Shown here piece by piece: positions 3,143 to 45,011 of a stretch of DNA of 45,106 nt (its first letter is position 1; every line of letters begins with the position of its first letter). The translations under genes were made by a program, and so were the position numbers. The DNA comes from Planktothricoides sp. SR001 (GTDB lineage: Bacteria > Cyanobacteriota > Cyanobacteriia > Cyanobacteriales > Laspinemataceae), in contig NZ_LIUQ01000024.1 in the NCBI RefSeq assembly GCF_001276715.1, forward strand, positions 24,458 to 69,563. Reading direction: 5' to 3'. The notes under the pieces are model-generated. The model ran no database searches, was not told the DNA's origin, and saw nothing but the letters and a program-made list of their open reading frames with translations.

Positions 3143-4900
3143 ATGAATAAACCAATTTTTTGCTTTAAAACCTTGACTGTCACCCTGTTAGCTGGGTTAA
3201 TTCCCGTGCTATTTTTGGCAGCTTGCGCCCCCAATTCCCAACAAACAAGTAAACCCGCTTCAAGGGATAAAACACTGGGCAGTGACGCGACAATAACACC
3301 AGGAGCAAGCACACCAGCACCAGCAACAACCACACCGGGTACTCCAGCCCCCGCAACTCCCCAGGAACAAGTAGCAAATGCACCGCAAATGATGGCGGAA
3401 ACCAAAGCGGAATCCTTAAAAATGTCGGAGAATATTGCTAAACCCGAAGAAGGGGAAATTGAAGACTTTAATACAGAACAATATAATCTGATCGTAGAGA
3501 ATCCATTTCAACCAGTCACGGTTAGCCCACTGTCTACATTTTCCATTGATGTAGATACGGCTTCTTATAGCAATTTACGGCGGTTTATTAGTCAGAAAAC
3601 TTTGCCCCCTGTGGATGCGGTGAGAATTGAAGAGTTGATTAATTATTTCCCTTACGACTATCCCCAACCGGAAGGAGATAAACCTTTTTCCGTTACCACA
3701 GAAATTGCTCAAACTCCCTGGAATTCTAAACATCAGTTAGTCAGTATTGGCTTACAAGGAAAAAGTATCGTAGCGGAAGAACTGCCACCGAGTAATCTGG
3801 TATTTTTGCTCGATGTTTCTGGGTCAATGGAAGACCCGAATAAGTTGCCTTTGTTGAAGTCTTCTTTTCAGTTACTTGTGAATGAGTTAGGGGAAAAAGA
3901 CCGGGTATCTATTGTGGTTTATGCCGGGGCAGCAGGTATGGTTTTGCCTCCCACACCGGGAAATCAAAAAGATAAAATTTTAAGCGCTATTAATGAGTTA
4001 AACGCCGGTGGTTCTACGGCTGGTGGAGAAGGAATTAAGCTGGCTTATGAAGTGGCAAAACAAAATTTTATTCCATCAGGAAATAACCGAGTTATTTTAG
4101 CCACTGATGGGGATTTTAATGTGGGAGTTTCCAGTGATGGGGAACTGGTGCGGCTAATTGAAGATTATCGAGAACGGGGGGTTTTTCTGACGGTGCTTGG
4201 CTTTGGTATGGGCAATTTAAAAGATGCCAAAATGGAGCAACTGGCGAATAAAGGTAATGGCAATTATGCTTATATTGATAGCTTGCTAGAAGCGAAAAAG
4301 GTGTTAGTTAGTGAAATGGGGGCGACCCTGTTAACTATTGCCAAAGATGTGAAAATTCAAGTGGAGTTTAATCCGGCAAAAGTGCAAGCTTATCGGTTGA
4401 TTGGTTATGAAAATCGCCGCCTGCGAGATCAAGATTTTAATGATGATACCAAAGATGCGGGGGAATTAGGGGCAGGTCATTCGGTGACGGCACTTTATGA
4501 GATTATTCCTACTGGGGTAGAAAGTGATGTGAATTTACCCACTGTCGATCCGTTAAAGTATCAACAGAATGCGGTGGATGCGACGGCTTATAATAGCAAT
4601 GAGTTGATGATGGTGAAGTTGCGTTATAAGGCACCGAATGAGAATGAGTCGAAGTTAATTCAACAGCCAGTGGTTGAGAACCAAGTGAGTTTTGCTGATG
4701 CTTCTAATAATTTGAAATTTGCGGCGGCAGTGGCAGAGTTTGGGATGATTTTACGAGATTCTCCCTATAAGGGTTCGGCTACTTTTGCTGAGGTGTTAAA
4801 GTTAGCGCAAGAGTCCCAAGGAGTTGATTTAGAAGGCTATCGGGCTGAGTTTATTCGGTTGGTAGAAAAAAGTCAGGCGATCGCCCCTAGAAAATCTTAG
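3143..4900 (+). CDS. VWA-domain lipoprotein (YfbK-like)
   Basis: This is an envelope lipoprotein of about 585 residues. From ATG 3143 it begins MNKPIF, followed by a hydrophobic segment and the lipobox LAAC at about residues 24-27, so a lipidated Cys is predicted. An upstream in-frame start at 3095 would bury the signal peptide and is rejected. A Thr/Pro/Ala-rich linker (residues ~35-80) precedes a conserved N-terminal domain (STFSIDVDTASYSNLRRF). The von Willebrand factor A domain carries the metal-site motif DVSGSM (about residues 225-230). The C-terminal region (KFAAAVAEFGMILR) matches the domain found in YfbK-type proteins. The metal-dependent adhesion site suggests protein-protein contact. 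Function is otherwise unknown and the gene stands alone. Confidence 0.87.
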   Translation: MNKPIFCFKTLTVTLLAGLIPVLFLAACAPNSQQTSKPASRDKTLGSDATITPGASTPAPATTTPGTPAPATPQEQVANAPQMMAETKAESLKMSENIAKPEEGEIEDFNTEQYNLIVENPFQPVTVSPLSTFSIDVDTASYSNLRRFISQKTLPPVDAVRIEELINYFPYDYPQPEGDKPFSVTTEIAQTPWNSKHQLVSIGLQGKSIVAEELPPSNLVFLLDVSGSMEDPNKLPLLKSSFQLLVNELGEKDRVSIVVYAGAAGMVLPPTPGNQKDKILSAINELNAGGSTAGGEGIKLAYEVAKQNFIPSGNNRVILATDGDFNVGVSSDGELVRLIEDYRERGVFLTVLGFGMGNLKDAKMEQLANKGNGNYAYIDSLLEAKKVLVSEMGATLLTIAKDVKIQVEFNPAKVQAYRLIGYENRRLRDQDFNDDTKDAGELGAGHSVTALYEIIPTGVESDVNLPTVDPLKYQQNAVDATAYNSNELMMVKLRYKAPNENESKLIQQPVVENQVSFADASNNLKFAAAVAEFGMILRDSPYKGSATFAEVLKLAQESQGVDLEGYRAEFIRLVEKSQAIAPRKS

Positions 4901-5644: not shown

Positions 5645-6029
5645 ACGGGCAGTTTTCCCTGTTAGAAGGTCTAATAGAAGGTCTAAATAGTAGATCTACG
5701 GAGACAAAAGCTGTGGAGCATGACCATGATAACAGACAATATGTAGCGTATTTTTGATAATTTAGGCAAAAATGAACACTAGATGTATGAAACTGAAGTG
5801 GCCTAGATCACCATCGCTTTTGATGATACTTGCTTTGGGATAAATTCTGTAAATTTATTTAAAATCCAAAATTTCTTTTTTTGTCATTCTTCCTTGGTCT
5901 TTTAACAAATAACATATAACAAATAGCAATAAACAAGTAACAAATAAAGAATGAAAAATAACTTTTTTAATGATGAAAGGTAAAATTTGTAGTAAAGTCT
6001 ACTGTGGGTACGAGTAGGAGAGTAGTTTC
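5645..6029. other. Intergenic region upstream of cobO-like gene and adk
   Basis: This divergent intergenic region has no gene. Near the cobO-like start there is a short tandem, AGAAGGTCTAA twice (about 5665-5687). The right half is AT-rich with AACAAATA-type units (about 5903-5947). A purine-rich site (TAGGAGA, about 6015-6021) lies just before the adk start. No RNA gene is seen. Confidence 0.5.
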
Positions 6030-6596
6030 GTGAGATTGGTAATTCTGGGCGGGCCGGGTGCTGGCAAAGGAACACAAGCAAATAAGTTGTGTAATTATTT
6101 TCAAATTCCTTTGGTTTCTATTGGCGATATTCTTCGAGAGGCGATCGCGGCAGAAACGAAGTTGGGAAAAAAAGCCCAACCTTATGTGGCAAAAGGCGAA
6201 CTGGTGCCAGATATGACGATGATTAAATTTGTGCGCGATCGCCTGCTGCAACCAGATACGAAAAATGGCTGGTTATTGGATGGTTATCCCCGCACCGCTT
6301 TCCAAGCGGAAGAGTTAGATTTTTTACTGGATCATTTGCAGCAAAAGTTAGATTGGGCGATTTTTTTAAATGTGCCAGAGGATGTATTAATCCAGCGCTG
6401 CAAAAATCGAGAATATAGGCGGACTGATGACGAACCGGAAATCGTCAAACGGCGGATTGATTTGTTTAATCAGCGCACGATTCCCTTGTTGGAATATTAT
6501 GAATATTACCAGCGACAACGCCTGATTTCCGTTCACGGAGAACAAACTCCCGAAGCAATATTTCAGGAAGTTTTGACCCAGATTAAGACTCAATAA
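6030..6596 (+). CDS. adk: Adenylate kinase (short-LID form)
   Basis: The enzyme interconverts ATP + AMP and 2 ADP in the cytosol. The P-loop GGPGAGKGTQ is at residues 7-16. The AMP-binding stretch and LLDGYPRT follow, then the LID-side arginines (YRRTDDEPEIVKRRIDLF). At 188 residues this is the short form without the ~25-residue extended LID. Translation appears to start at GTG (6030), preceded by TAGGAGA at suitable distance; an internal ATG would remove the P-loop. rph begins 58 bp downstream on the same strand, so the two are probably co-transcribed. Confidence 0.95.
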   Translation: MRLVILGGPGAGKGTQANKLCNYFQIPLVSIGDILREAIAAETKLGKKAQPYVAKGELVPDMTMIKFVRDRLLQPDTKNGWLLDGYPRTAFQAEELDFLLDHLQQKLDWAIFLNVPEDVLIQRCKNREYRRTDDEPEIVKRRIDLFNQRTIPLLEYYEYYQRQRLISVHGEQTPEAIFQEVLTQIKTQ

Positions 6597-14220: not shown

Positions 14221-15693
14221 CTAAATTGCTTGTAATATATTTTCTGAAAAATTGGTAATTATACTAATCGTTTCTGCGGATAAACTTAACTCTTGGTAAA
14301 TGACTTGATTCACCGCAAATATATATTGCATTGCTGCTTGCGATGAGACTTTTTTTTCATAAGCTTCCTGAGCAAATATTTGAAGTTTTTCTTTTCCCTT
14401 AACGCTAATTTCCGGGATAGGAATCCGCCCTAAATAACCAGAAGTAATCATGTTAGACCGATTTAATATCCCCCGGACCATAAATGTCACCAAATGACTA
14501 TTTAAGTAAGCAATCAGCCACCAAGTATCCCGATCGCTCGTAATAATATTGGCATTGACTCCATAAGTTGAATTAGCTGGTAAATAGCAAGCAGAAAAAG
14601 GAATTCCCATCGAAGAACAAGTTATTCCCGGTCGATATAATAGGTCTTGGTTACGCACCATAAAATTAGGAACTTTTTGGGCAATTGATAAGAAATTATC
14701 GGCTAAGTAAGCATTAGGATGAGTAAAAAACCGAGATTTACCAGGATTTTTATAGAAGGGTATGTTAAATCCTGGTTTTTTCTGTTTAGATAAATATTCG
14801 CGATCGCATCCGGTAGAAATTCCGGTGACACAAGGAAATAAAGTTCCTAACCTGGGATAAGAAAATAGCCCCTGGATTTCATCGGTCATGGCGATCGCAA
14901 ATTCATAGCGATCTGATTTCCCTGACAGCAGAATTTGCTCTAAAGGTGCGGTGACAAATTTTTTCGCTTCTAATGTTGTGGCCAATTTTTGCATATTTAA
15001 CGGACGATTTGCTATTTTAACTTGTTTTTGATACTCGCGTCCTTTTTGCAGAATCATAATACAAGTCCGCACGTCAGCCCCTTGAGCCAAAAACAGGTCA
15101 TTGGGACAAAGAATCAGATAGTGAATTGCACAATTATTGATAATTTTTTGCCGCAATTCTGTATGCGCTTTAGCCGTCAGGAATGAATCCAGAGTAATCA
15201 TCCCGATCAAAGCGCCATTCTTGGCAAAATCAATTAACGCCGATATAAACATGGAATACATATTATGTACTCCTACGTCTGAGAAAAAACTCAATAGCTT
15301 AGATTTATTTTGTCTAATATAATCGACTTCATGGCAGTTATAAGGTGGATTAGCAATATAAAAATCGTAATTTAGTCCTATTTTTTGATTTAAAATACAG
15401 TGATTTTTTTGATTGATATAGTATTCTAAAAAATCTTGGGGGTGAAAATTTATGGTTTCTGGCAAATTGAAGGATAAAATATCCATCCCGTCTACGAATA
15501 CACCCCGCTTCATCAGCGGAATTGCCATTTCCCCGCGACCCACACAAGGATCTAAGGCATAACTGCCGGTGGGATTAAGGTTTGTAATTGCCCAAGCAAT
15601 GAACTCAGAAATAAAAGCCGGGGTCGAGTAGTAACCTGTTTCTCGCCGGTCTATACCTGTTTTTGTCTGAATTATTTTAGGATGGCGACCCAT
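14221..15693 (-). CDS. N6-adenine-specific DNA methyltransferase (orphan)
   Basis: This 490-residue protein is predicted to transfer methyl groups from S-adenosylmethionine to adenine in DNA. The SAM-binding motif I is DPCVGRGEM (about residues 48-56) and the catalytic motif IV is NPPY (about 114-117). Early motif order and the long C-terminal half place it in the gamma-type, TaqI/Eco57I-like group. That C-terminal half (IPFYKNPGK, NRSNMITSGYLGRIPIP) reads as the target-recognition domain. No restriction endonuclease gene or nuclease motif is adjacent, so it is an orphan or the rest is lost. The gene is flanked by two copies of the chlB 3' end, which marks it as likely imported. Confidence 0.85.
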   Translation of the reverse strand: MGRHPKIIQTKTGIDRRETGYYSTPAFISEFIAWAITNLNPTGSYALDPCVGRGEMAIPLMKRGVFVDGMDILSFNLPETINFHPQDFLEYYINQKNHCILNQKIGLNYDFYIANPPYNCHEVDYIRQNKSKLLSFFSDVGVHNMYSMFISALIDFAKNGALIGMITLDSFLTAKAHTELRQKIINNCAIHYLILCPNDLFLAQGADVRTCIMILQKGREYQKQVKIANRPLNMQKLATTLEAKKFVTAPLEQILLSGKSDRYEFAIAMTDEIQGLFSYPRLGTLFPCVTGISTGCDREYLSKQKKPGFNIPFYKNPGKSRFFTHPNAYLADNFLSIAQKVPNFMVRNQDLLYRPGITCSSMGIPFSACYLPANSTYGVNANIITSDRDTWWLIAYLNSHLVTFMVRGILNRSNMITSGYLGRIPIPEISVKGKEKLQIFAQEAYEKKVSSQAAMQYIFAVNQVIYQELSLSAETISIITNFSENILQAI

Positions 15694-33408: not shown

Positions 33409-36296
33409 GTTTCAATCCCTGATAGGGATTCTATATAGTTGCAACCAGAGTTTGACCGCTCGGACGCTGATCAAGAAATCATCGTTTCAATCCCTGATAG
33501 GGATTCTATATAGTTGCAACTTTCATTAATTTAAGGTGTAGTCTTCTTCAATCGCGGTTTCAATCCCTGATAGGGATTCTATATAGTTGCAACCTGGCCA
33601 AAGCTTTTGCTTGAGTCATTTTGTAATTGTTTCAATCCCTGATAGGGATTCTATATAGTTGCAACAATTCACCCCGTTTTTAAGTAAAGTCAAGGTTGGC
33701 GTTTCAATCCCTGATAGGGATTCTATATAGTTGCAACTCGTCAAACTGAAATTTAATCTGAGAAGAATTAAAGTTTCAATCCCTGATAGGGATTCTATAT
33801 AGTTGCAACATCCAAATTTGTTCCAAAGGAGGAGATGAATTTATGTTTCAATCCCTGATAGGGATTCTATATAGTTGCAACCAAGCCAGATGATTGCAGT
33901 AATTTAGTATTACCTGTTTCAATCCCTGATAGGGATTCTATATAGTTGCAACTCGTAATTTTTTACTCGGTGACTTTCGATTTGCTGAAGTTTCAATCCC
34001 TGATAGGGATTCTATATAGTTGCAACAGTTCGTGGGGGACATATCCTACACATATCTAGATAAGTTTCAATCCCTGATAGGGATTCTATATAGTTGCAAC
34101 ATTCACTCATAATTGATGCCAGAGAGTCGTCGAAAATCGTTTCAATCCCTGATAGGGATTCTATATAGTTGCAACAATTTATTGGCAAAAAGCAGCGGTA
34201 TCGGTGCGAATTGTTTTAATCCCTGATAGGGATTCTATATAGTTGCAACCAGTGCTTAAGCTAAAAGCATTGTGTAAATTTAAGGCTAAATTTGTTTCAA
34301 TCCCTGATAGGGATTCTATATAGTTGCAACAACCCCCCCTACCTTTAGATTTTTTCTTTGAAAAAGTTTCAATCCCTGATAGGGATTCTATATAGTTGCA
34401 ACGTCCGCATGGCTACACACCCGCTTTCAGCAAATTCGTTTCAATCCCTGATAGGGATTCTATATAGTTGCAACGGGTATTCTTGGCATAGCTTTCGCCG
34501 CACCTTTGCGTTTCAATCCCTGATAGGGATTCTATATAGTTGCAACAGCAGTTTTTCTCGGAGTTTCAGCCCTCGGAAAATGTTTCAATCCCTGATAGGG
34601 ATTCTATATAGTTGCAACTGTTATTGTCAGGATTGTTCGGGCTGTGTTTCAAAGTTTCAATCCCTGATAGGGATTCTATATAGTTGCAACACAGTAGAAA
34701 AGTAATGGCTTTTTCATTTCAGTGTGGTTTCAATCCCTGATAGGGATTCTATATAGTTGCAACAATTGATTTTCCCTAATATTCCCTGCTTAATGCTGTT
34801 TCAATCCCTGATAGGGATTCTATATAGTTGCAACTATCAAGTTAACGATGCTCTTGATACAGCGATTAAGTTTCAATCCCTGATAGGGATTCTATATAGT
34901 TGCAACCCCTTGCTTCCGTTCTTGAATCGAAAGAATTCGGTGTTTCAATCCCTGATAGGGATTCTATATAGTTGCAACCGGGAAAAATCAAGCAAATCAA
35001 ACCGGAAGACTCGTTTCAATCCCTGATAGGGATTCTATATAGTTGCAACTCTCCATCCGGTTAGCGCTAGGGACACTGCATCTGTTTCAATCCCTGATAG
35101 GGATTCTATATAGTTGCAACTTTTTCTGCTTTTGACCTATCTAAAAACGCCCAAGTAGTTTCAATCCCTGATAGGGATTCTATATAGTTGCAACTAACCG
35201 CCACGGACGAGCCGAAATCTGGGATGAGACTGTTTCAATCCCTGATAGGGATTCTATATAGTTGCAACCTGCCAAGCTATGTGAATACTTGTGGCAGGCG
35301 CTTTTGGTTTCAATCCCTGATAGGGATTCTATATAGTTGCAACTGTAATGGCTGGCTGGTTTTTTTTCAGATTTTAAAAGTTTCAATCCCTGATAGGGAT
35401 TCTATATAGTTGCAACTCGATCTAATCCAGCACAAACTATTTATGTTTCCGTTTCAATCCCTGATAGGGATTCTATATAGTTGCAACAGTTAGCCCACTA
35501 CGGCAAAAGAGCCGAGGCCATGTTTCAATCCCTGATAGGGATTCTATATAGTTGCAACCAAGTATTCAGAAACTTTTCCCAGGCTTACCAGCGATTCGTT
35601 TCAATCCCTGATAGGGATTCTATATAGTTGCAACCACTTTCTTCCGAGAACCAATCAAGAAACTCTTCGTGTTTCAATCCCTGATAGGGATTCTATATAG
35701 TTGCAACTCACGGACCCGTCACCCGATTCGTCACAAGTCAAAAAAGTTTCAATCCCTGATAGGGATTCTATATAGTTGCAACGGAAATTGATTTGGCCAC
35801 GGGAAAAATCAAACAGATTAGTTTCAATCCCTGATAGGGATTCTATATAGTTGCAACAGGGAGATGTGCCTTGCACCTGTACCGAGCTAGGGTTTCAATC
35901 CCTGATAGGGATTCTATATAGTTGCAACTTTTGTCGCCATTTGTAAATTTCCTGTGCGTATTTTTTGTTTCAATCCCTGATAGGGATTCTATATAGTTGC
36001 AACAATTTCCCCTATTTGGGAATGCGATCGCCCGGTTCCGTTTCAATCCCTGATAGGGATTCTATATAGTTGCAACAATGCGCTTACAAGCTTCCTTCCA
36101 GTAGGTGAAAATCGTTTCAATCCCTGATAGGGATTCTATATAGTTGCAACGTCAGAACGCACGGGCCGAATCGTCTTTTTCCCATGTTTCAATCCCTGAT
36201 AGGGATTCTATATAGTTGCAACCCAATAAAAGGTGTCGTCCCCTGCCCGATAACAAGCGGTTTCAATCCCTGATAGGGATTCTATATAGTTGCAAC
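33409..36296 (-). repeat. Array block A: 40 leader-distal repeats, type G13/T24
   Basis: All 40 repeats carry G at plus-strand position 13 (CCCTGATAGGG) and T at position 24 (GATTCTATATAG). The only deviation noticed is the repeat at 34213-34249, which has T for C at position 5 (GTTTTAATCC). This changes the predicted crRNA handle from ATTGAAAC to ATTAAAAC for the adjacent spacer. Confidence 0.95.
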
Positions 36297-36333
36297 TCAT
36301 TCTCCCTAAGTCCTAAAACTTTTGCTAGTGCTA

Positions 36334-39300
36334 GTTTCAATCCCTAATAGGGATTCAATATAGTTGCAACAGCATTAGCCGATGCCCTGGAAAAAATACC
36401 AGAATCGGTTTCAATCCCTAATAGGGATTCAATATAGTTGCAACTTTGTCAGTCAAATTGTCAATCTAGCATGGGCAATTTGTTTCAATCCCTAATAGGG
36501 ATTCAATATAGTTGCAACCAATAAGTTTGGCGTGGTCAGCCCAAAAGACGCCAGCGTTTCAATCCCTAATAGGGATTCAATATAGTTGCAACTAGGTAAT
36601 CGCAAAAATCCTGTTGTTCATTTGGTTGGTTTCAATCCCTAATAGGGATTCAATATAGTTGCAACTTTTTGTCAAGCAAACGCAACTAGGAAATGATTTT
36701 GAGTTTCAATCCCTAATAGGGATTCAATATAGTTGCAACCAACTCCCCGCATACTTGGCGTATTAGATGCCTTAAGTTTCAATCCCTAATAGGGATTCAA
36801 TATAGTTGCAACTATGCTGAGATTCCCGCTGAGATTCCCGCTGATTCTGTTTCAATCCCTAATAGGGATTCAATATAGTTGCAACTAAAAATTATTGAGC
36901 GCGGCTTTCTGTGCTGCATTGTTTCAATCCCTAATAGGGATTCAATATAGTTGCAACCCTTACATCCAATAGGGCCATAATCAATCCCATTGCTTCGTTT
37001 CAATCCCTAATAGGGATTCAATATAGTTGCAACTTTTGCCGTATCTGGGAATAATACCTTATTGTACTTGTTTCAATCCCTAATAGGGATTCAATATAGT
37101 TGCAACCCGGTTGAGTTTCCTGATGGGAAAATTGCAAAATACCTGTTTCAATCCCTAATAGGGATTCAATATAGTTGCAACCGCGCTTACCGCTGGTTTG
37201 GCTTTGCGATCGCTAGTAAAGGCGTCGTTTCAATCCCTAATAGGGATTCAATATAGTTGCAACATCGAGAATAAGGCGCTGGAAACAATGCGGCGAATTG
37301 TTTCAATCCCTAATAGGGATTCAATATAGTTGCAACCCCACTGGGGCGAGATCGATTCGATCCACGGGTAAGTTTCAATCCCTAATAGGGATTCAATATA
37401 GTTGCAACAAGCGATCGAAGGGTGGGGCAGCGGCGAAGCGTGGTTTCAATCCCTAATAGGGATTCAATATAGTTGCAACCTATGCAATTTGGTTGATACA
37501 TCTACGTTGCAAGGTTGTTTCAATCCCTAATAGGGATTCAATATAGTTGCAACTCTGGGGTCGTAATTGGCAAGCAGCCTAATTCATTTAGGTTTCAATC
37601 CCTAATAGGGATTCAATATAGTTGCAACCCGCTGGTTTAGCTTTGCGAAGCTTGGTGAAAGTCTCGTTTCAATCCCTAATAGGGATTCAATATAGTTGCA
37701 ACCCCCGGAATGCCAGGAGCCCGAACCCGAACCCGAACCCGGTTTCAATCCCTAATAGGGATTCAATATAGTTGCAACTGATTGAGCCGCCGTAGTCATC
37801 GTCGATTTGATAGAGTTTCAATCCCTAATAGGGATTCAATATAGTTGCAACTCATACTCATTGAGCGGAGAGTTTGCCCGTGCCCGTTTCAATCCCTAAT
37901 AGGGATTCAATATAGTTGCAACTCAAGGAATGCACCATTGTATATTCTATTGGCCTACCGTTTCAATCCCTAATAGGGATTCAATATAGTTGCAACAGCT
38001 AACTTTTGATTATCAACATCAGAAATCACTTCAGGGTTTCAATCCCTAATAGGGATTCAATATAGTTGCAACGCCAAAAGCATTAATAACTTTAGCTAGA
38101 TCCTCGTACTGGTTTCAATCCCTAATAGGGATTCAATATAGTTGCAACCACCTAATTTTTTATTTAGGCGTTCTTCTAATTCTGCGTTTCAATCCCTAAT
38201 AGGGATTCAATATAGTTGCAACCTGCGGGAGTTCCTGCGGCCAAACTTCCAAAAGATTGAGTTTCAATCCCTAATAGGGATTCAATATAGTTGCAACTTC
38301 CGAGCGGCGTCGGTTGCAAACGTGCAATAAAAGTGTTTCAATCCCTAATAGGGATTCAATATAGTTGCAACTTGTTTTTTAAACTGGTGAGGCCAATACA
38401 AAGCAGCAATAAAAGTGTTTCAATCCCTAATAGGGATTCAATATAGTTGCAACAAAATTGGAGCATTGATCCAACAAGATCCTGCATTTCAAGTTTCAAT
38501 CCCTAATAGGGATTCAATATAGTTGCAACTTTTCTCGCACTTTTTCCGAAAGCGATCGCACTGCCCCGTTTCAATCCCTAATAGGGATTCAATATAGTTG
38601 CAACGGCGCTTCCGGGTGGCGAGGCATGGTTTTTTTTGCTGGGGTTTCAATCCCTAATAGGGATTCAATATAGTTGCAACGAGCGCCGTCACCGTTCAAG
38701 GGGCAATTGAAGAACTGGTTTCAATCCCTAATAGGGATTCAATATAGTTGCAACAACTTAACGGTTGCAGTACCCTACAAGGTGAAACTTCGTTTCAATC
38801 CCTAATAGGGATTCAATATAGTTGCAACAGAGCAGTTAATTTCTCAATACACATTTAGTGAAGCTGTTTCAATCCCTAATAGGGATTCAATATAGTTGCA
38901 ACCGCGATCGTTGATAATTCACCCGCTCCTAACATTATGTTTCAATCCCTAATAGGGATTCAATATAGTTGCAACAAAGCTTGCTGATAAAAATGAGCCA
39001 ATAAATTTATTGTTTCAATCCCTAATAGGGATTCAATATAGTTGCAACAATTTCACGCAATTGTGCAAGTGACAGATGAGCGAAGTTTCAATCCCTAATA
39101 GGGATTCAATATAGTTGCAACAATGCAGATGGCGTCATTAAATATGAAGATAGTGTTTCAATCCCTAATAGGGATTCAATATAGTTGCAACGACCCAATC
39201 ACTCCTGAAACGCAATTACCTAGCGGTGAGTTTCAATCCCTAATAGGGATTCAATATAGTTGCAACGATCAAAGATTATGAACTGTTTCTAGAAAAAAGT

Positions 39301-42300
39301 TTCAATCCCTAATAGGGATTCAATATAGTTGCAACTATATCTCCCGGTTTATCAGCGTCGTCTAGCCACCAGGTTTCAATCCCTAATAGGGATTCAATAT
39401 AGTTGCAACAATATTCTCAAAAATATAGACGACTTTGACTTTCGGTTTCAATCCCTAATAGGGATTCAATATAGTTGCAACTTGCTCCTAGGTAGAGGTT
39501 CCCATCGTTGTCGCCAGGTTTCAATCCCTAATAGGGATTCAATATAGTTGCAACCGCTTTCCAGGTTCAGCAGGGTTGATTGGATTCACGTTTCAATCCC
39601 TAATAGGGATTCAATATAGTTGCAACAATGTATTTCAAATGTTTGGATTTAAGGATGAAAACGTTTCAATCCCTAATAGGGATTCAATATAGTTGCAACA
39701 CGGCGATATCGCCCTGGGTGTAGTAGCACCGAATCAGTTTCAATCCCTAATAGGGATTCAATATAGTTGCAACAAATCTGGGTATCTTTTCCCCAGCCCT
39801 TTCATCCCAGTTTCAATCCCTAATAGGGATTCAATATAGTTGCAACCCCAAATTGTTTGGTCGTGGTTGAGTTGCCAGATGTTTCAATCCCTAATAGGGA
39901 TTCAATATAGTTGCAACAGAATATGCAGCTATAGACCATTCTCATTCAGCGATCGGTTTCAATCCCTAATAGGGATTCAATATAGTTGCAACCCAATCCA
40001 GACAGCCCCGGCTGATGAGCCAACACAGAGTTTCAATCCCTAATAGGGATTCAATATAGTTGCAACCTGCATAAAGGCGATCGCAAGCGCTAAACACAGA
40101 TTTGTTTCAATCCCTAATAGGGATTCAATATAGTTGCAACGTTATACGGCAACTCAAGCACCACCAACCCCTTTGGTTTCAATCCCTAATAGGGATTCAA
40201 TATAGTTGCAACAGTAGGTGATGGGTGGGTACTTCCCGGAGCGATCGGTTTCAATCCCTAATAGGGATTCAATATAGTTGCAACAAGAATTTCCCAGCTT
40301 TTCTGATTTTGATTGGGATGTTTCAATCCCTAATAGGGATTCAATATAGTTGCAACAGATAAAATCGCCCGCTGCCAAAAAGAATCCAGGAAGTTTCAAT
40401 CCCTAATAGGGATTCAATATAGTTGCAACTTCGGTCGGCTCCAGCGAAAGACCCAGTACGGACCGCAGTTTCAATCCCTAATAGGGATTCAATATAGTTG
40501 CAACCTTCGTATTATGGTGATATTGTATTCCCACTCCATTTGTTTCAATCCCTAATAGGGATTCAATATAGTTGCAACGACCGGCTCTCTCCAGGGCCGC
40601 CCGAAACCAGCGATCGTTTCAATCCCTAATAGGGATTCAATATAGTTGCAACGTGATCCAACTGGTTCAACTCCAATAGAAAACTTGTTTCAATCCCTAA
40701 TAGGGATTCAATATAGTTGCAACCCCATTGCTACGAGAAATCTATCGAATTAGCTATTGAGTTTCAATCCCTAATAGGGATTCAATATAGTTGCAACAAA
40801 ATCAAAAGTTTGAATACTCTTGATAGCTCTTTTTGTTTCAATCCCTAATAGGGATTCAATATAGTTGCAACTATCATTTGTCCCGCCGACAACACTACCG
40901 ACAAAAGGGTTTCAATCCCTAATAGGGATTCAATATAGTTGCAACATTTCAGGAACCAGACTCAGAACTGGTGGCGATTTTTGTTTCAATCCCTAATAGG
41001 GATTCAATATAGTTGCAACGGGTATAGCTTGCACAGCTTCCGGCGGACTTGCCTGTTTCAATCCCTAATAGGGATTCAATATAGTTGCAACCGATGATTA
41101 TGCGTGGAAGTCGGCCGACAGACATCCAGGTTTCAATCCCTAATAGGGATTCAATATAGTTGCAACCTTATGGTGTTGGAGGTTCGGCTTGGGTAAATGG
41201 CGCGTTTCAATCCCTAATAGGGATTCAATATAGTTGCAACTTACAGCCTTCCATTGATAAATATTTTAAAAATCTTAGGTTTCAATCCCTAATAGGGATT
41301 CAATATAGTTGCAACCCGCCGCTGGCCTGCCGCTGCGAATCGATGATCGCAGTTTCAATCCCTAATAGGGATTCAATATAGTTGCAACTTCTTTGGTAGC
41401 ACGAAATCATCGGGAAAGGACTGAGTTTCAATCCCTAATAGGGATTCAATATAGTTGCAACCGCCGCTGGCCTGCCGCTGCGAATCGATGATCGCAGTTT
41501 CAATCCCTAATAGGGATTCAATATAGTTGCAACTTAAGTTTCTTTTTTTTCATAAACACCACAAAAACATCGTTTCAATCCCTAATAGGGATTCAATATA
41601 GTTGCAACTTTCAGGGCACCGATCGCTCGATTCATTGCAGACCTATCTCGTTTCAATCCCTAATAGGGATTCAATATAGTTGCAACCGTGCTTCCCAATG
41701 TTTGCAGTCTTCACAGAAAAGTTTCAATCCCTAATAGGGATTCAATATAGTTGCAACGGAGTTGCTAGATATTCTCTAGCAACTTCTGTAAGTTTCAATC
41801 CCTAATAGGGATTCAATATAGTTGCAACGCCCTTAAGCTTGCTGGCTTATTGGATTCTCATCAATTTGTTTCAATCCCTAATAGGGATTCAATATAGTTG
41901 CAACCTTCAGTTTAATGATGTTGCAAAACTCATCTTCTGTTTCAATCCCTAATAGGGATTCAATATAGTTGCAACTTGAAGAAAAACAAGTTTTAATTGA
42001 AAAAGTTTTGTTTCAATCCCTAATAGGGATTCAATATAGTTGCAACTCACATGAAATACCTCCCTGATGGGAGTTCGTTGTGTTTCAATCCCTAATAGGG
42101 ATTCAATATAGTTGCAACAATCCCGAAAAAGATTGATTTTAAGAGCGATCGCAGGCGTTTCAATCCCTAATAGGGATTCAATATAGTTGCAACTTTTCGT
42201 CGCCACCATTTGGTGTGAACGCTCCAGTTTCAATCCCTAATAGGGATTCAATATAGTTGCAACGAAAAAGGATTTAGTGTTGTATGCACCTCAAATCGTT

Positions 42301-44407
42301 TCAATCCCTAATAGGGATTCAATATAGTTGCAACTGCACCAACACTCAATTGCCATTGTTTCCTCTTTTAAATGTTTCAATCCCTAATAGGGATTCAATA
42401 TAGTTGCAACATTCTAATCCCACCAGCGGTGTTCTCGAATTTGTTGTTTCAATCCCTAATAGGGATTCAATATAGTTGCAACCATAGTGCGCCTCGTCAG
42501 CAATCAGAATATATTCTTGTTTCAATCCCTAATAGGGATTCAATATAGTTGCAACTTATATAGAAATCGGAATCGTAACCGATAATCTCGTTTCAATCCC
42601 TAATAGGGATTCAATATAGTTGCAACCGAGAAAGAGATTTTCTTTCACCAACAATAAACCTAGTTTCAATCCCTAATAGGGATTCAATATAGTTGCAACT
42701 ATCGACAATATTTATACATTATCAAGAGTAGATGTAGTTTCAATCCCTAATAGGGATTCAATATAGTTGCAACTGATGATTTTTTCGTTATTCCGGCAGC
42801 AGTATCTTGTCGTTTCAATCCCTAATAGGGATTCAATATAGTTGCAACTCTCTCTGTGGGTACAAAATTAAAGTCCCAGTAAAAGTTTCAATCCCTAATA
42901 GGGATTCAATATAGTTGCAACACTCGTCCCTGCGCTGCAAAAAGCACAGGCGATCGCTGTTTCAATCCCTAATAGGGATTCAATATAGTTGCAACACCCG
43001 TTATTGGGGTTTCCGCCAAACCAGCCCACAACGTTTCAATCCCTAATAGGGATTCAATATAGTTGCAACTATCTATTTTACGAAATGAGGTTGCCAAAAT
43101 TAAATGTTTCAATCCCTAATAGGGATTCAATATAGTTGCAACGCTTAATCATCTCTGAATTTGGGGAGGTGGCATAATGTTTCAATCCCTAATAGGGATT
43201 CAATATAGTTGCAACTTTAGATCCAGGAGTGCGATCGAGTTATCCGGTCGCGTTTCAATCCCTAATAGGGATTCAATATAGTTGCAACTATTTTTCACGA
43301 ACTAAGTCACTTTGAAGAATTCGTTTCAATCCCTAATAGGGATTCAATATAGTTGCAACAATCCGGTGAATCCGCAACTGGATTTTCCAGATTTGTTTCA
43401 ATCCCTAATAGGGATTCAATATAGTTGCAACTGGATACAAATGGAGTTGTATATTTTATACACCCGTTTCAATCCCTAATAGGGATTCAATATAGTTGCA
43501 ACTCCGGCATGATGGCGTCAGCAATAAATAAAGTTTCATAGTTTCAATCCCTAATAGGGATTCAATATAGTTGCAACAAACAAAATGCTGAATTCCTACG
43601 CTAACTACTTCACTGTTTCAATCCCTAATAGGGATTCAATATAGTTGCAACAGATGTTCACCGGAGTATCCCAAGGGCTATCAGGGGGTTTCAATCCCTA
43701 ATAGGGATTCAATATAGTTGCAACCTTTGTGGCAATGCCTAGAGATGAAAGATGGGCTGCGATCGCTCTCAGGGTTTCAATCCCTAATAGGGATTCAATA
43801 TAGTTGCAACTTTTACCGGAACCCGTGAACCGATGAACCTACCCTCTGGTTTCAATCCCTAATAGGGATTCAATATAGTTGCAACATATTATAAAGCGGA
43901 TATCATTACAATGTCATTAGTCAGTTTCAATCCCTAATAGGGATTCAATATAGTTGCAACATCGAGCTTCACTGCAACGACGTGAGAAGCCTTGCGAGTT
44001 TCAATCCCTAATAGGGATTCAATATAGTTGCAACCTAGCCTAATCTAGCCCTGTATAGGCGACACCAAAGAAGTTTCAATCCCTAATAGGGATTCAATAT
44101 AGTTGCAACTCGCACCCACCCCCCTAGAATCTGTCCTCTCAATGGGGTTTCAATCCCTAATAGGGATTCAATATAGTTGCAACCCAAGACCCAATCGAAA
44201 CCTCGATCAATTCTAGATAAGTTTCAATCCCTAATAGGGATTCAATATAGTTGCAACGTAGTCATTATGCCACCTCCCCACGTTAGAGATGATCAGTTTC
44301 AATCCCTAATAGGGATTCAATATAGTTGCAACTCTAAAGTCACCTTGACTAGCCCGCTACCACAATAGGTGTTTCAATCCCTAATAGGGATTCAATATAG
44401 TTGCAAC
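36334..44407 (-). repeat. Array block B: 110 leader-proximal repeats, type A13/A24
   Basis: All 110 repeats carry A at position 13 (CCCTAATAGGG) and A at position 24 (GATTCAATATAG). No repeat with only one of the two changes was seen. Position 13 is in the hairpin loop and position 24 lies outside the stem, so stem and handle are unaffected. New repeats are copied from the leader-proximal one, so a changed founder repeat would propagate to every later acquisition. Confidence 0.95.
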
Positions 44408-44738
44408 CGCCGGGGCTCGGAACCCTTAATCTATTTAGTTTTCCAGGTTCATTTGCGCGAATCGAGTTAATCATACCATAAAAACCCCAAAACTTGTCAA
44501 TATGCCTCAAACACGAATCAGGGGAAACCTAAGCGGGGAGAGAGTTTTAGCATTTGCGCGAATCGGTTCACCAATCCTAAAGCCCCAAACCTTCACCCTG
44601 TAAAGGCTTCAGAGGAAAAAATCCCCTGGGCTTATTTTACAGCCACCCCTCCGCGCAAAATACCGCTTCATCTCATCCTCAAACCGAAGCTTCCGGGAAA
44701 GCCGGTTAGCCAGCCACTCCAGGGCGCCGGTCATGGAA
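44408..44738 (-). promoter_or_regulatory. CRISPR leader region
   Basis: This lies between the first leader-proximal repeat and cas2. The part next to the array is AT-rich. The 15-mer CATTTGCGCGAATCG occurs twice as a direct repeat (44450-44464 and 44551-44565), 101 bp apart; the nearer copy ends 42 bp from the first repeat. Array promoter and adaptation signals are expected here. The 44609-44734 part may encode a short peptide. Confidence 0.7.
44609..44734 (-). CDS. Possible 41-residue ORF just after cas2
   Basis: ATG at 44734 opens four bases after the cas2 stop codon. The frame reads MTGALEWLANRLSRKLRFED, then EMKRYFARRGG, to TGA at 44609-44611. It is basic and helical in character. No strong ribosome site is visible, but the close spacing would allow translational coupling. 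It could also be the relic of a longer cas-related protein or chance. Not recognised. Confidence 0.3.
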   Translation of the reverse strand: MTGALEWLANRLSRKLRFEDEMKRYFARRGGCKISPGDFFL

Positions 44739-45011
44739 TCAGGCAAAAAACACCGTCGTATCCATTGGCTGTTCGCCCCCAATTCGTTCTATTTTACCCT
44801 GGCAGCAGCCACAAAGAAAATAAAACCGGATACTATCCTCCTCTGACTTAATCAACTTACTCAATCTTGCCCGTAACTTCGCATATTCAGTTTCACTCAG
44901 AGAACATTCAAACAAACTATACTGCATCCACTGTCCATAAGAACTGAGAACTTTATGGATTTTGGTGCGCCGTTTATCATCAGAAATATCATAGGAAACA
45001 ACTATATACAT
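44739..45011 (-). CDS. cas2: CRISPR-associated endoribonuclease/adaptation protein Cas2
   Basis: The 90-residue product has the Cas2 ferredoxin fold: N-terminal strand MYIVVSYDIS with the conserved Asp8, basic DDKRRTKIHKVLSSYG helix, QYSLFECSLS strand and IRFYFLCGCC strand. With Cas1 it forms the spacer-integration complex. It is read toward the array, with the leader directly downstream. The region before its start is TTGTTGG repeat DNA to the window edge, so cas1 and the interference genes lie outside. Confidence 0.95.
   Translation of the reverse strand: MYIVVSYDISDDKRRTKIHKVLSSYGQWMQYSLFECSLSETEYAKLRARLSKLIKSEEDSIRFYFLCGCCQGKIERIGGEQPMDTTVFFA

Follow-up and report, generated by a model that had tools for sequence, protein, structure and literature searches.

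Blocks of different repeat types within a single CRISPR array have been described in Pyrobaculum as clustered 'DR mixing', in crispr5 of P. neutrophilum and crispr1 of P. oguniense; in its accessible text, that study suggests recombination, or that adaptation copied a leader-proximal repeat from a different array (PMC3396285). Repeat variants at the old end of an array and recombination between repeats appear in the accessible part of a review of terminal-repeat polymorphism (PMC8047081), and single-base repeat variants inside arrays appear in that of a study of Streptococcus agalactiae CRISPR1 (PMC4466440). Both resemble what we observed in Planktothricoides sp. SR001.

A switch of repeat type within one array

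We analyzed a stretch of 45,106 nucleotides (hereafter, the window) from contig NZ_LIUQ01000024.1 of SR001. Repeats were located by scanning every 37-mer on the + strand of the window, with up to 12 mismatches allowed. The features are:

33409 to 44407, minus (transcribed) strand: CRISPR array of 150 repeats of 37 nt and 149 spacers, with its leader at the high-coordinate end
33409 to 36296, minus strand: old, leader-distal block of 40 G13/T24 repeats, one of which (34213) has an extra C5T
33446 to 33989, minus strand: the 8 oldest spacers, which recur unchanged and in unaltered order in a genome of the same species (G001)
36297 to 36333, minus strand: boundary spacer of 37 nt, with a G13/T24 repeat on the old side and an A13/A24 repeat on the new side
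36334 to 36370, minus strand: first A13/A24 repeat, the putative converted leader-adjacent repeat, as judged from G001 and the leader comparison
36334 to 44407, minus strand: young, leader-proximal block of 110 identical A13/A24 repeats
44408 to 44720, minus strand: leader of this locus (the first 313 nt, which were searched)
44739 to 45011, minus strand: cas2 (type I-D)

The scan returned 39 exact G13/T24 repeats, the C5T variant and the 110 identical A13/A24 repeats, and Rfam CRISPR-DR5 independently marked 150 repeats, all on the minus strand. Together they confirm the claim of the sequence-only reading that the repeat type switches after 40 of 150 repeats with no intermediate: none of the 150 array repeats carries only one of the two changes. 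That reading was also right that all 40 leader-distal repeats share G13/T24, though the one at 34213 is not identical to the rest. The last G13/T24 repeat lies at 36260-36296, directly before the boundary spacer, and so clean a division (40/110, zero mixing) calls for no chance model. The boundary spacer has the commonest length in the array (38/149 spacers). Across the boundary, we observed no clear change in spacer length (KS p 0.06, Mann-Whitney p 0.05) or spacer G+C (p 0.27).

Both changes had been said to avoid the stem and the handle of the repeat. They do lie outside the 7-bp stem; however, A24 (U14 of the crRNA strand) is predicted to add two weak outer pairs to handle A34/A35, and the predicted fold energy goes from -7.9 to -9.1 kcal/mol.

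The array belongs to a type I-D system. Beyond the window, cas2 is followed by cas1, cas4, cas6d, csc1, csc2, cas10d and cas3', so that cas10d (csc3), csc1, csc2 and cas3' all lie beside the array; curated cut-offs were exceeded for Csc3, Csc1, Csc2, cas3_cyano, cas1_CYANO, Cas2, Cas4 and Cas6, and the PADLOC verdict was likewise type I-D. Where the window ends, the scaffold runs into a gap of 146 N, and all cas genes but cas2 lie across it. In the single-contig G001 genome, Cas1 adjoins the same (orthologous) array. This operon suggests that one Cas6 would process both repeat types.

Sister genomes and a second array

It is established that acquisition copies the leader-adjacent repeat. The 8 low-end spacers are common to SR001 and G001 in order, marking the low-coordinate end as the old end; newer spacers are strain-specific, as expected under acquisition at the leader end. 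The orthologous array of G001 has 169 repeats, all G13/T24 (one with an extra G18T), and shows no switch. Its absence there supports the proposal that the boundary is a time mark, and the 8 leader-distal spacers in common suggest that SR001 probably switched after its split from G001, the one other genome available for comparison within the species. In a genome of the same genus (G002), the repeat at this locus is G13/A24 (two weak matches on its contig C28, with 7 mismatches each, were set aside). Given this G002 repeat, A24 in SR001 could represent reversion from T24 to an older state, in which case that change would be less unexpected. Such repeats (at most 2 mismatches) occurred in 3 of 14 family genomes, all of this genus, and a looser repeat pattern had no match among the 11 other family genomes.

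A second array of the A13/A24 type had been raised as a possible partner in recombination, and such arrays were found in both strains. Array 2 of SR001, on contig C117, has 192 repeats, of which 190 are A13/A24 and the other 2 carry a single additional change; all 249 repeats found in array 2 of G001 are A13/A24. In SR001, array 2 is spread across contigs: the start of C117 falls within the array, and this contig contains one N gap as well as two unusually long spacers. Another contig, C57, holds G13/A24/G27 repeats. We considered C57 as a third array, since its flank is present in G001 and G002 without an array (G001:C1:903000-907000, G002:C34:1-12000 and G002:C27:1-3000 were covered), but rejected this because leaders of this kind number only two in SR001; C57 is thus probably the old end of array 2. 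The far flank of array 2 in G001 matches SR001 contigs C23 and C157, a match that leaves the C57 question unsettled. Array 2 has a gap between contigs, and a donor spacer could lie inside it. For the interiors of the SR001 arrays, the assembly relies on short reads from a culture that was not axenic.

All 39 exact G13/T24 copies in the SR001 genome are inside the window array, and no variant of that type was found on C57 or C117, so we saw nothing moving from the window array to array 2. Matches on the strand opposite to the array, with 10-12 mismatches (2 on C57, + strand; 21 on C117, - strand), were set aside as chance matches to the palindromic core.

The leader of array 2 is related to that of this locus (202/259 identical). 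None of the four proteins tested beyond the array-2 leader on C117 gave a Cas match, and one shared Cas1-Cas2 probably extends both arrays. Over its first 260 nt, the locus leader is identical to that of the orthologous G001 locus at 254/260 positions. Among 54 ungapped diagnostic columns (55 less one gapped column), 51 were of the locus type, 2 of the array-2 type and 1 other; at both array-2-type columns the G002 orthologue has the SR001 base, making G001 the odd one there. Aligned flank blocks are 97.9-99.5% identical between SR001 and G001.

The 396 SR001 spacers (149+191+56) included no identical ones. The window array and array 2 of SR001 have one overlapping spacer pair with different ends, which occupies the 9th position from the leader in each array; the next best matches were shared 14-mers only. 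In G001, the spacer pairs comprise three with a 1-nt difference at one end and a similar one with 3 mismatches, at ranks 95/94, 18/33, 16/32 and 12/9. Judged from these pairs in the two strains, the donor array was probably present at the right time. A fifth G001 match, a shared 18-mer at ranks 187/17, misfits side-by-side growth.

We also considered a mobile-borne donor and rejected it on searches of viral, phage and plasmid collections, which may omit records very near the SR001 genome. The exact A13/A24, G13/T24, G13/A24 and A13/T24 repeats were absent from viral_contigs, and searches of phage and plasmid collections (shared 28-base word, E up to 1e-5) returned neither near matches of the array nor, at that sensitivity, spacer targets.

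Origin of the switch

The sequence-only reading left three causes unranked: a founder repeat that took both changes, recombination with an A13/A24 array, and array fusion. Our analysis favours the second. Probably, a repeat of array 2 overwrote the leader-adjacent repeat of the window array in a single non-reciprocal short-tract transfer (gene conversion), and was then copied 109 times. The young type matches the repeat of the genome's second array exactly, the receiving leader was retained, and any transfer was one-way, with no receiver-type repeat found on C57 or C117. The donor type and the receiver are well supported, and for the mechanism we infer array 2 as the donor, a conversion tract and a starting break or nick at the leader-repeat junction.

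In the proposed sequence of events, the window array would originally have been G13/T24 and array 2 A13/A24, both probably extended by the same Cas1-Cas2. At the switch, the window array would have held at least 40 spacers, 8 of them common to G001. The exchange would begin with a break or nick where leader and repeat meet, and in the SR001 lineage the repeat then adjoining the leader would be replaced by an array-2 repeat. The repeat has only two differing sites and its spacer side is unrelated; the tract would span repeat positions 13-24 as a minimum and, as a maximum, the whole repeat with about 20 nt of leader. Conversion would rest on these two sites, with no donor tract visible beyond the repeat. 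Each later acquisition would copy the new repeat, giving 110 A13/A24 repeats.

The evidence is against fusion of whole arrays, as the locus kept its own leader and flanks and no identical array-2 spacer was carried along. A smaller block of array-2 repeats and spacers might have replaced the leader end, with the other crossover falling in the last repeat or within about 20 nt of the start of the leader; such a replacement would leave an identical boundary, the two leaders are alike enough to pair, and array 2 has an assembly gap. However, the window array shares no identical spacer with array 2 of SR001 (one overlapping pair and 14-mers aside) and no 18-mer with array 2 of G001 on either strand, and no G13/T24 block moved out, making block transfer unlikely. 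The switched leader end might instead have been imported from a conspecific strain already A13/A24 at this locus, which would likewise keep a locus-type leader and flank; identity to G001 is slightly lower over the 698 bp of the leader-cas2 stretch (97.9%) than over the other aligned blocks (99.0-99.5%). Such allelic exchange merely shifts the inter-array event to another cell, and we saw no sharp identity break, though 356 bp beyond cas2 (including the 146 N) fail to align with G001; we regard it as very unlikely.

Mutation of the leader-adjacent repeat at both sites between two acquisitions is highly improbable. Leader-adjacent copying would spread any founder change, single-base variants do occur in the SR001 genome (C5T, C10A, G33C and C37T, as well as G1A, which was propagated as a block on C57), and A24 is also the G002 state. 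But both changes match the repeat of the other array exactly, which random two-site change would yield about once in 6,000, and they would have to fall in one interval among some 301 strain-specific spacers of both strains, at a locus with otherwise no propagated change. An assembly artefact joining two arrays is the least credible explanation, and extremely unlikely. The genome is a short-read binned draft from a non-axenic culture, with the irregularities on C117 and the scaffold gap at the window's end. Yet the longest exact run common to the two repeat types is 13 nt, so an assembler could hardly slide between types inside a repeat; the window contains no N, the boundary spacer has an ordinary length, and the leader that the A13/A24 repeat adjoins belongs to this locus rather than to array 2. 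The order of spacers among the A13/A24 repeats is less secure than the switch itself.

Short-tract transfer from array 2 thus remains our preferred reading. Tentatively, Cas1-Cas2 cuts at the leader-repeat junction may occasionally be repaired from a paralogous array, so that adaptation itself would drive the exchange and the leader-adjacent repeats of arrays sharing one adaptation module would stay alike by concerted evolution; the G13/T24 block and the far-end G13/A24/G27 repeats of C57 might then be fossils of earlier, separate repeats.

Significance and relation to known systems

In this probable inter-array repeat transfer, it is possible to name the type of the donor, the receiver, the direction and a relative date, which falls after 8 shared and 32 unshared spacers and ahead of the last 109. 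Were such transfers frequent, they would account for a repeat shared among separate arrays of one genome, and the repeat type would be a poor guide to array ancestry, yet usable as an order mark inside arrays.

The changes in S. agalactiae CRISPR1 are single and affect 25 of 1,837 repeats, and the accessible text of that study does not describe a matching second array (PMC4466440). The terminal-repeat review, in its accessible part, concerns one array and mostly the last repeat (PMC8047081), whereas in SR001 the differing block comprises 40 repeats and the young repeats have the type of another array. In Pyrobaculum, as here, arrays hold at least two repeat types in blocks, and P. neutrophilum also has non-mixed arrays of such types; in contrast to that DR mixing, the SR001 array has 40+110 repeats with no mixing. 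As far as the accessible text of the Pyrobaculum study extends, leader retention, a sister strain and the absence of carried spacers were not used there to choose a cause (PMC3396285); here, they were. Clustered repeat types are already in print for Pyrobaculum, and SR001 is a new, well-resolved case.

Repeat types along the window array

We typed every repeat of the window array by the bases at numbered positions of the 37-nt repeat and obtained the following arrangement, from the old to the young end.

33409-44407, - strand (transcribed strand, Rfam): CRISPR array of 150 repeats
Low-end block: 40 G13/T24 repeats, 39 exact and one with C5T at 34213
Between the repeats at 36260 and 36334: switch point, with no intermediates
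36297-36333: boundary spacer, 37 nt, an ordinary length
Remainder of the array: 110 A13/A24 repeats, all identical
High end: leader, then cas2

The typing bore out the 40/110 split, the boundary and the lack of intermediates that the sequence-only reading had described; as it stated, G13/T24 is common to all 40 distal repeats, one of which also has C5T. The two repeat types have at most 13 consecutive identical bases in common, and the repeats that touch the boundary spacer and the leader are of the types given above; judged from the assembled sequence, the switch itself therefore does not resemble an assembly error. Spacer order within the A13/A24 block is less secure, because A13/A24 repeats are also present in a second array of this genome (array 2). 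The SR001 draft (7,066,705 bases, 165 contigs) is described in an excerpt of PMC5460452 as a bin from a non-axenic culture, assembled from short reads.

The same locus in related genomes

The same-species genome G001, a single contig, lacks the switch: all 169 repeats of its orthologous array are G13/T24, one of them with an added G18T. The flanks align closely (trailer, 99.0-99.3% identity in two blocks; leader-cas2 stretch, 97.9%; cas flank, 99.4-99.5%), with 356 bp, including the N gap at the window end, left unaligned. The first 8 spacers are the same in sequence and order; past spacer 8 the arrays differ except for one pair of similar spacers whose positions (97 and 13) do not correspond. 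The SR001 array thus reads as 8 shared spacers, 32 unshared ones through 36297-36333, and finally the A13/A24 block, which holds 109 spacers. Given the uniform G001 array and the 8 common spacers, G13/T24 is the native repeat of the locus, and the switch most simply took place in SR001 after its split from G001, about 109 acquisitions ago. Some of the 32 unshared spacers could predate the split and have since disappeared from G001.

In G002, of the same genus, 63 repeats at this locus are G13/A24 and a further one is decayed. The G002 array-2 orthologue (L056, contig C56) has 139 repeats with G13, G27 and C29; C23 and T23 alternate there in five blocks, and spacers 51-59 and 60-68 have common 18-mers in order, an apparent 9-spacer tandem duplication.

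A second array and the origin of the new repeat

A genome-wide search, allowing at most three mismatches beside the two free positions, found 398 repeats of this family: 150 in the window, 192 on contig C117 and the rest on C57, where one of the 57 repeats is degenerate and exceeds the limit. C117 begins inside array 2, and its own leader starts at 14290; 190 of its repeats are A13/A24 and 2 have one additional change. Since the genome yielded just two such leaders, C57 probably represents the old end of that array. The C57 repeats run from 11 G13/A24/G27 (the outermost degenerate) through A13/A24 and 14 with G1A back to A13/A24, with two other single-base variants. The G001 array 2 has 249 repeats, all A13/A24; two of its spacer gaps are long (111 and 105 nt) and could conceal a decayed repeat.

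C57 and C117 have further features. On C57 (L031), 3349-3460 holds a second abrupt two-site switch, G13/G27 to A13/A27, A27 being the state at the window locus; at 1812-2797, the 14 consecutive G1A repeats return to G1, a pattern that simple copying of the repeat next to the leader does not readily produce. On C117 (L032), two long 'spacers' (1105-1210 and 5975-6087) each contain a spacer tail twice, flanking GTTTCAATT and filler, and reflect either assembly error or odd integration; a 120-N gap lies within 2566-2738.

The sequence-only reading had offered three causes: a founder repeat mutated at both sites, recombination with an A13/A24 array, or array fusion. The new repeat matches the array-2 repeat exactly, which favours recombination; a random two-site change would yield it roughly once in 6,000, ignoring mutation bias and subject to the qualification that A24 may be the older state. 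This disfavours founder mutation, and the 301 unshared spacers of SR001 and G001 include no other spread repeat change at the locus. As to how much was exchanged, we compared leaders at 54 ungapped columns that distinguish the G001 locus leader from both array-2 leaders. SR001 has the locus base at 51, the array-2 base at 2 and another base at 1, so its leader was not replaced; at both array-2-type columns the G002 orthologue agrees with SR001, which makes G001 the odd one. Genome searches, including C57 and C117, found no G13/T24 repeats outside the window array; the two SR001 arrays have no identical spacers, and the window array has no 18-mer in common with G001 array 2 on either strand. 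Together these favour a short one-way tract over a block swap: array-2 repeat sequence would have been copied onto the leader-end repeat with the leader retained, the first clear locus-type leader column lying 21 nt from the repeat.

The ranks of paired spacers, counted from the leader, suggest that the two arrays grew roughly in step. One SR001 pair, at rank 9 in both arrays, coincides over 37 nt but ends at different points, consistent with two independent captures from a single target. In G001, three pairs (spacers 153/74, 230/135 and 232/136, array 2/window locus; ranks 95/94, 18/33 and 16/32) differ only in a single terminal nt, as though both arrays had captured the same targets in parallel; another pair (3 mismatches) has ranks 12/9, and a fifth, partial 18-mer match (187/17) misfits side-by-side growth. 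Array 2 was therefore probably already A13/A24 when the switch occurred.

Cas genes, processing and known cases

The type I-D genes cas1, cas4, cas6d, csc1, csc2, cas10d and cas3' lie past the window end, where a 146-N scaffold gap begins exactly and separates cas2 from cas1; in G001 a Cas1 gene (C1:2934031-2934888) is likewise just past the orthologous array. HepT-like and Uma2-like genes sit within the operon, between cas10d and cas3' (L033, 10296-11680). SR001 has three Cas1 genes, one of them in this operon. Past the C117 leader, four proteins compared with Cas families, from 10 listed ORFs of at least 100 aa, gave no match. Since the leaders are related, we infer that both arrays use the type I-D Cas1. 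The changes had been said to avoid stem and handle: the 7-bp stem is unaltered in both types, but A24 permits two extra weak pairs with handle bases in the predicted fold. A single Cas6 would be expected to process both types.

Our search of the open literature found no sister-strain-resolved case of blocked repeat types. An excerpt of a 2012 Pyrobaculum study (PMC3396285) describes repeat types in blocks within a single array and proposes recombination or copying from another array. The window array similarly has blocked repeat types, one of them that of another array, and we file it as a new, well-resolved case of such Pyrobaculum-style blocks.
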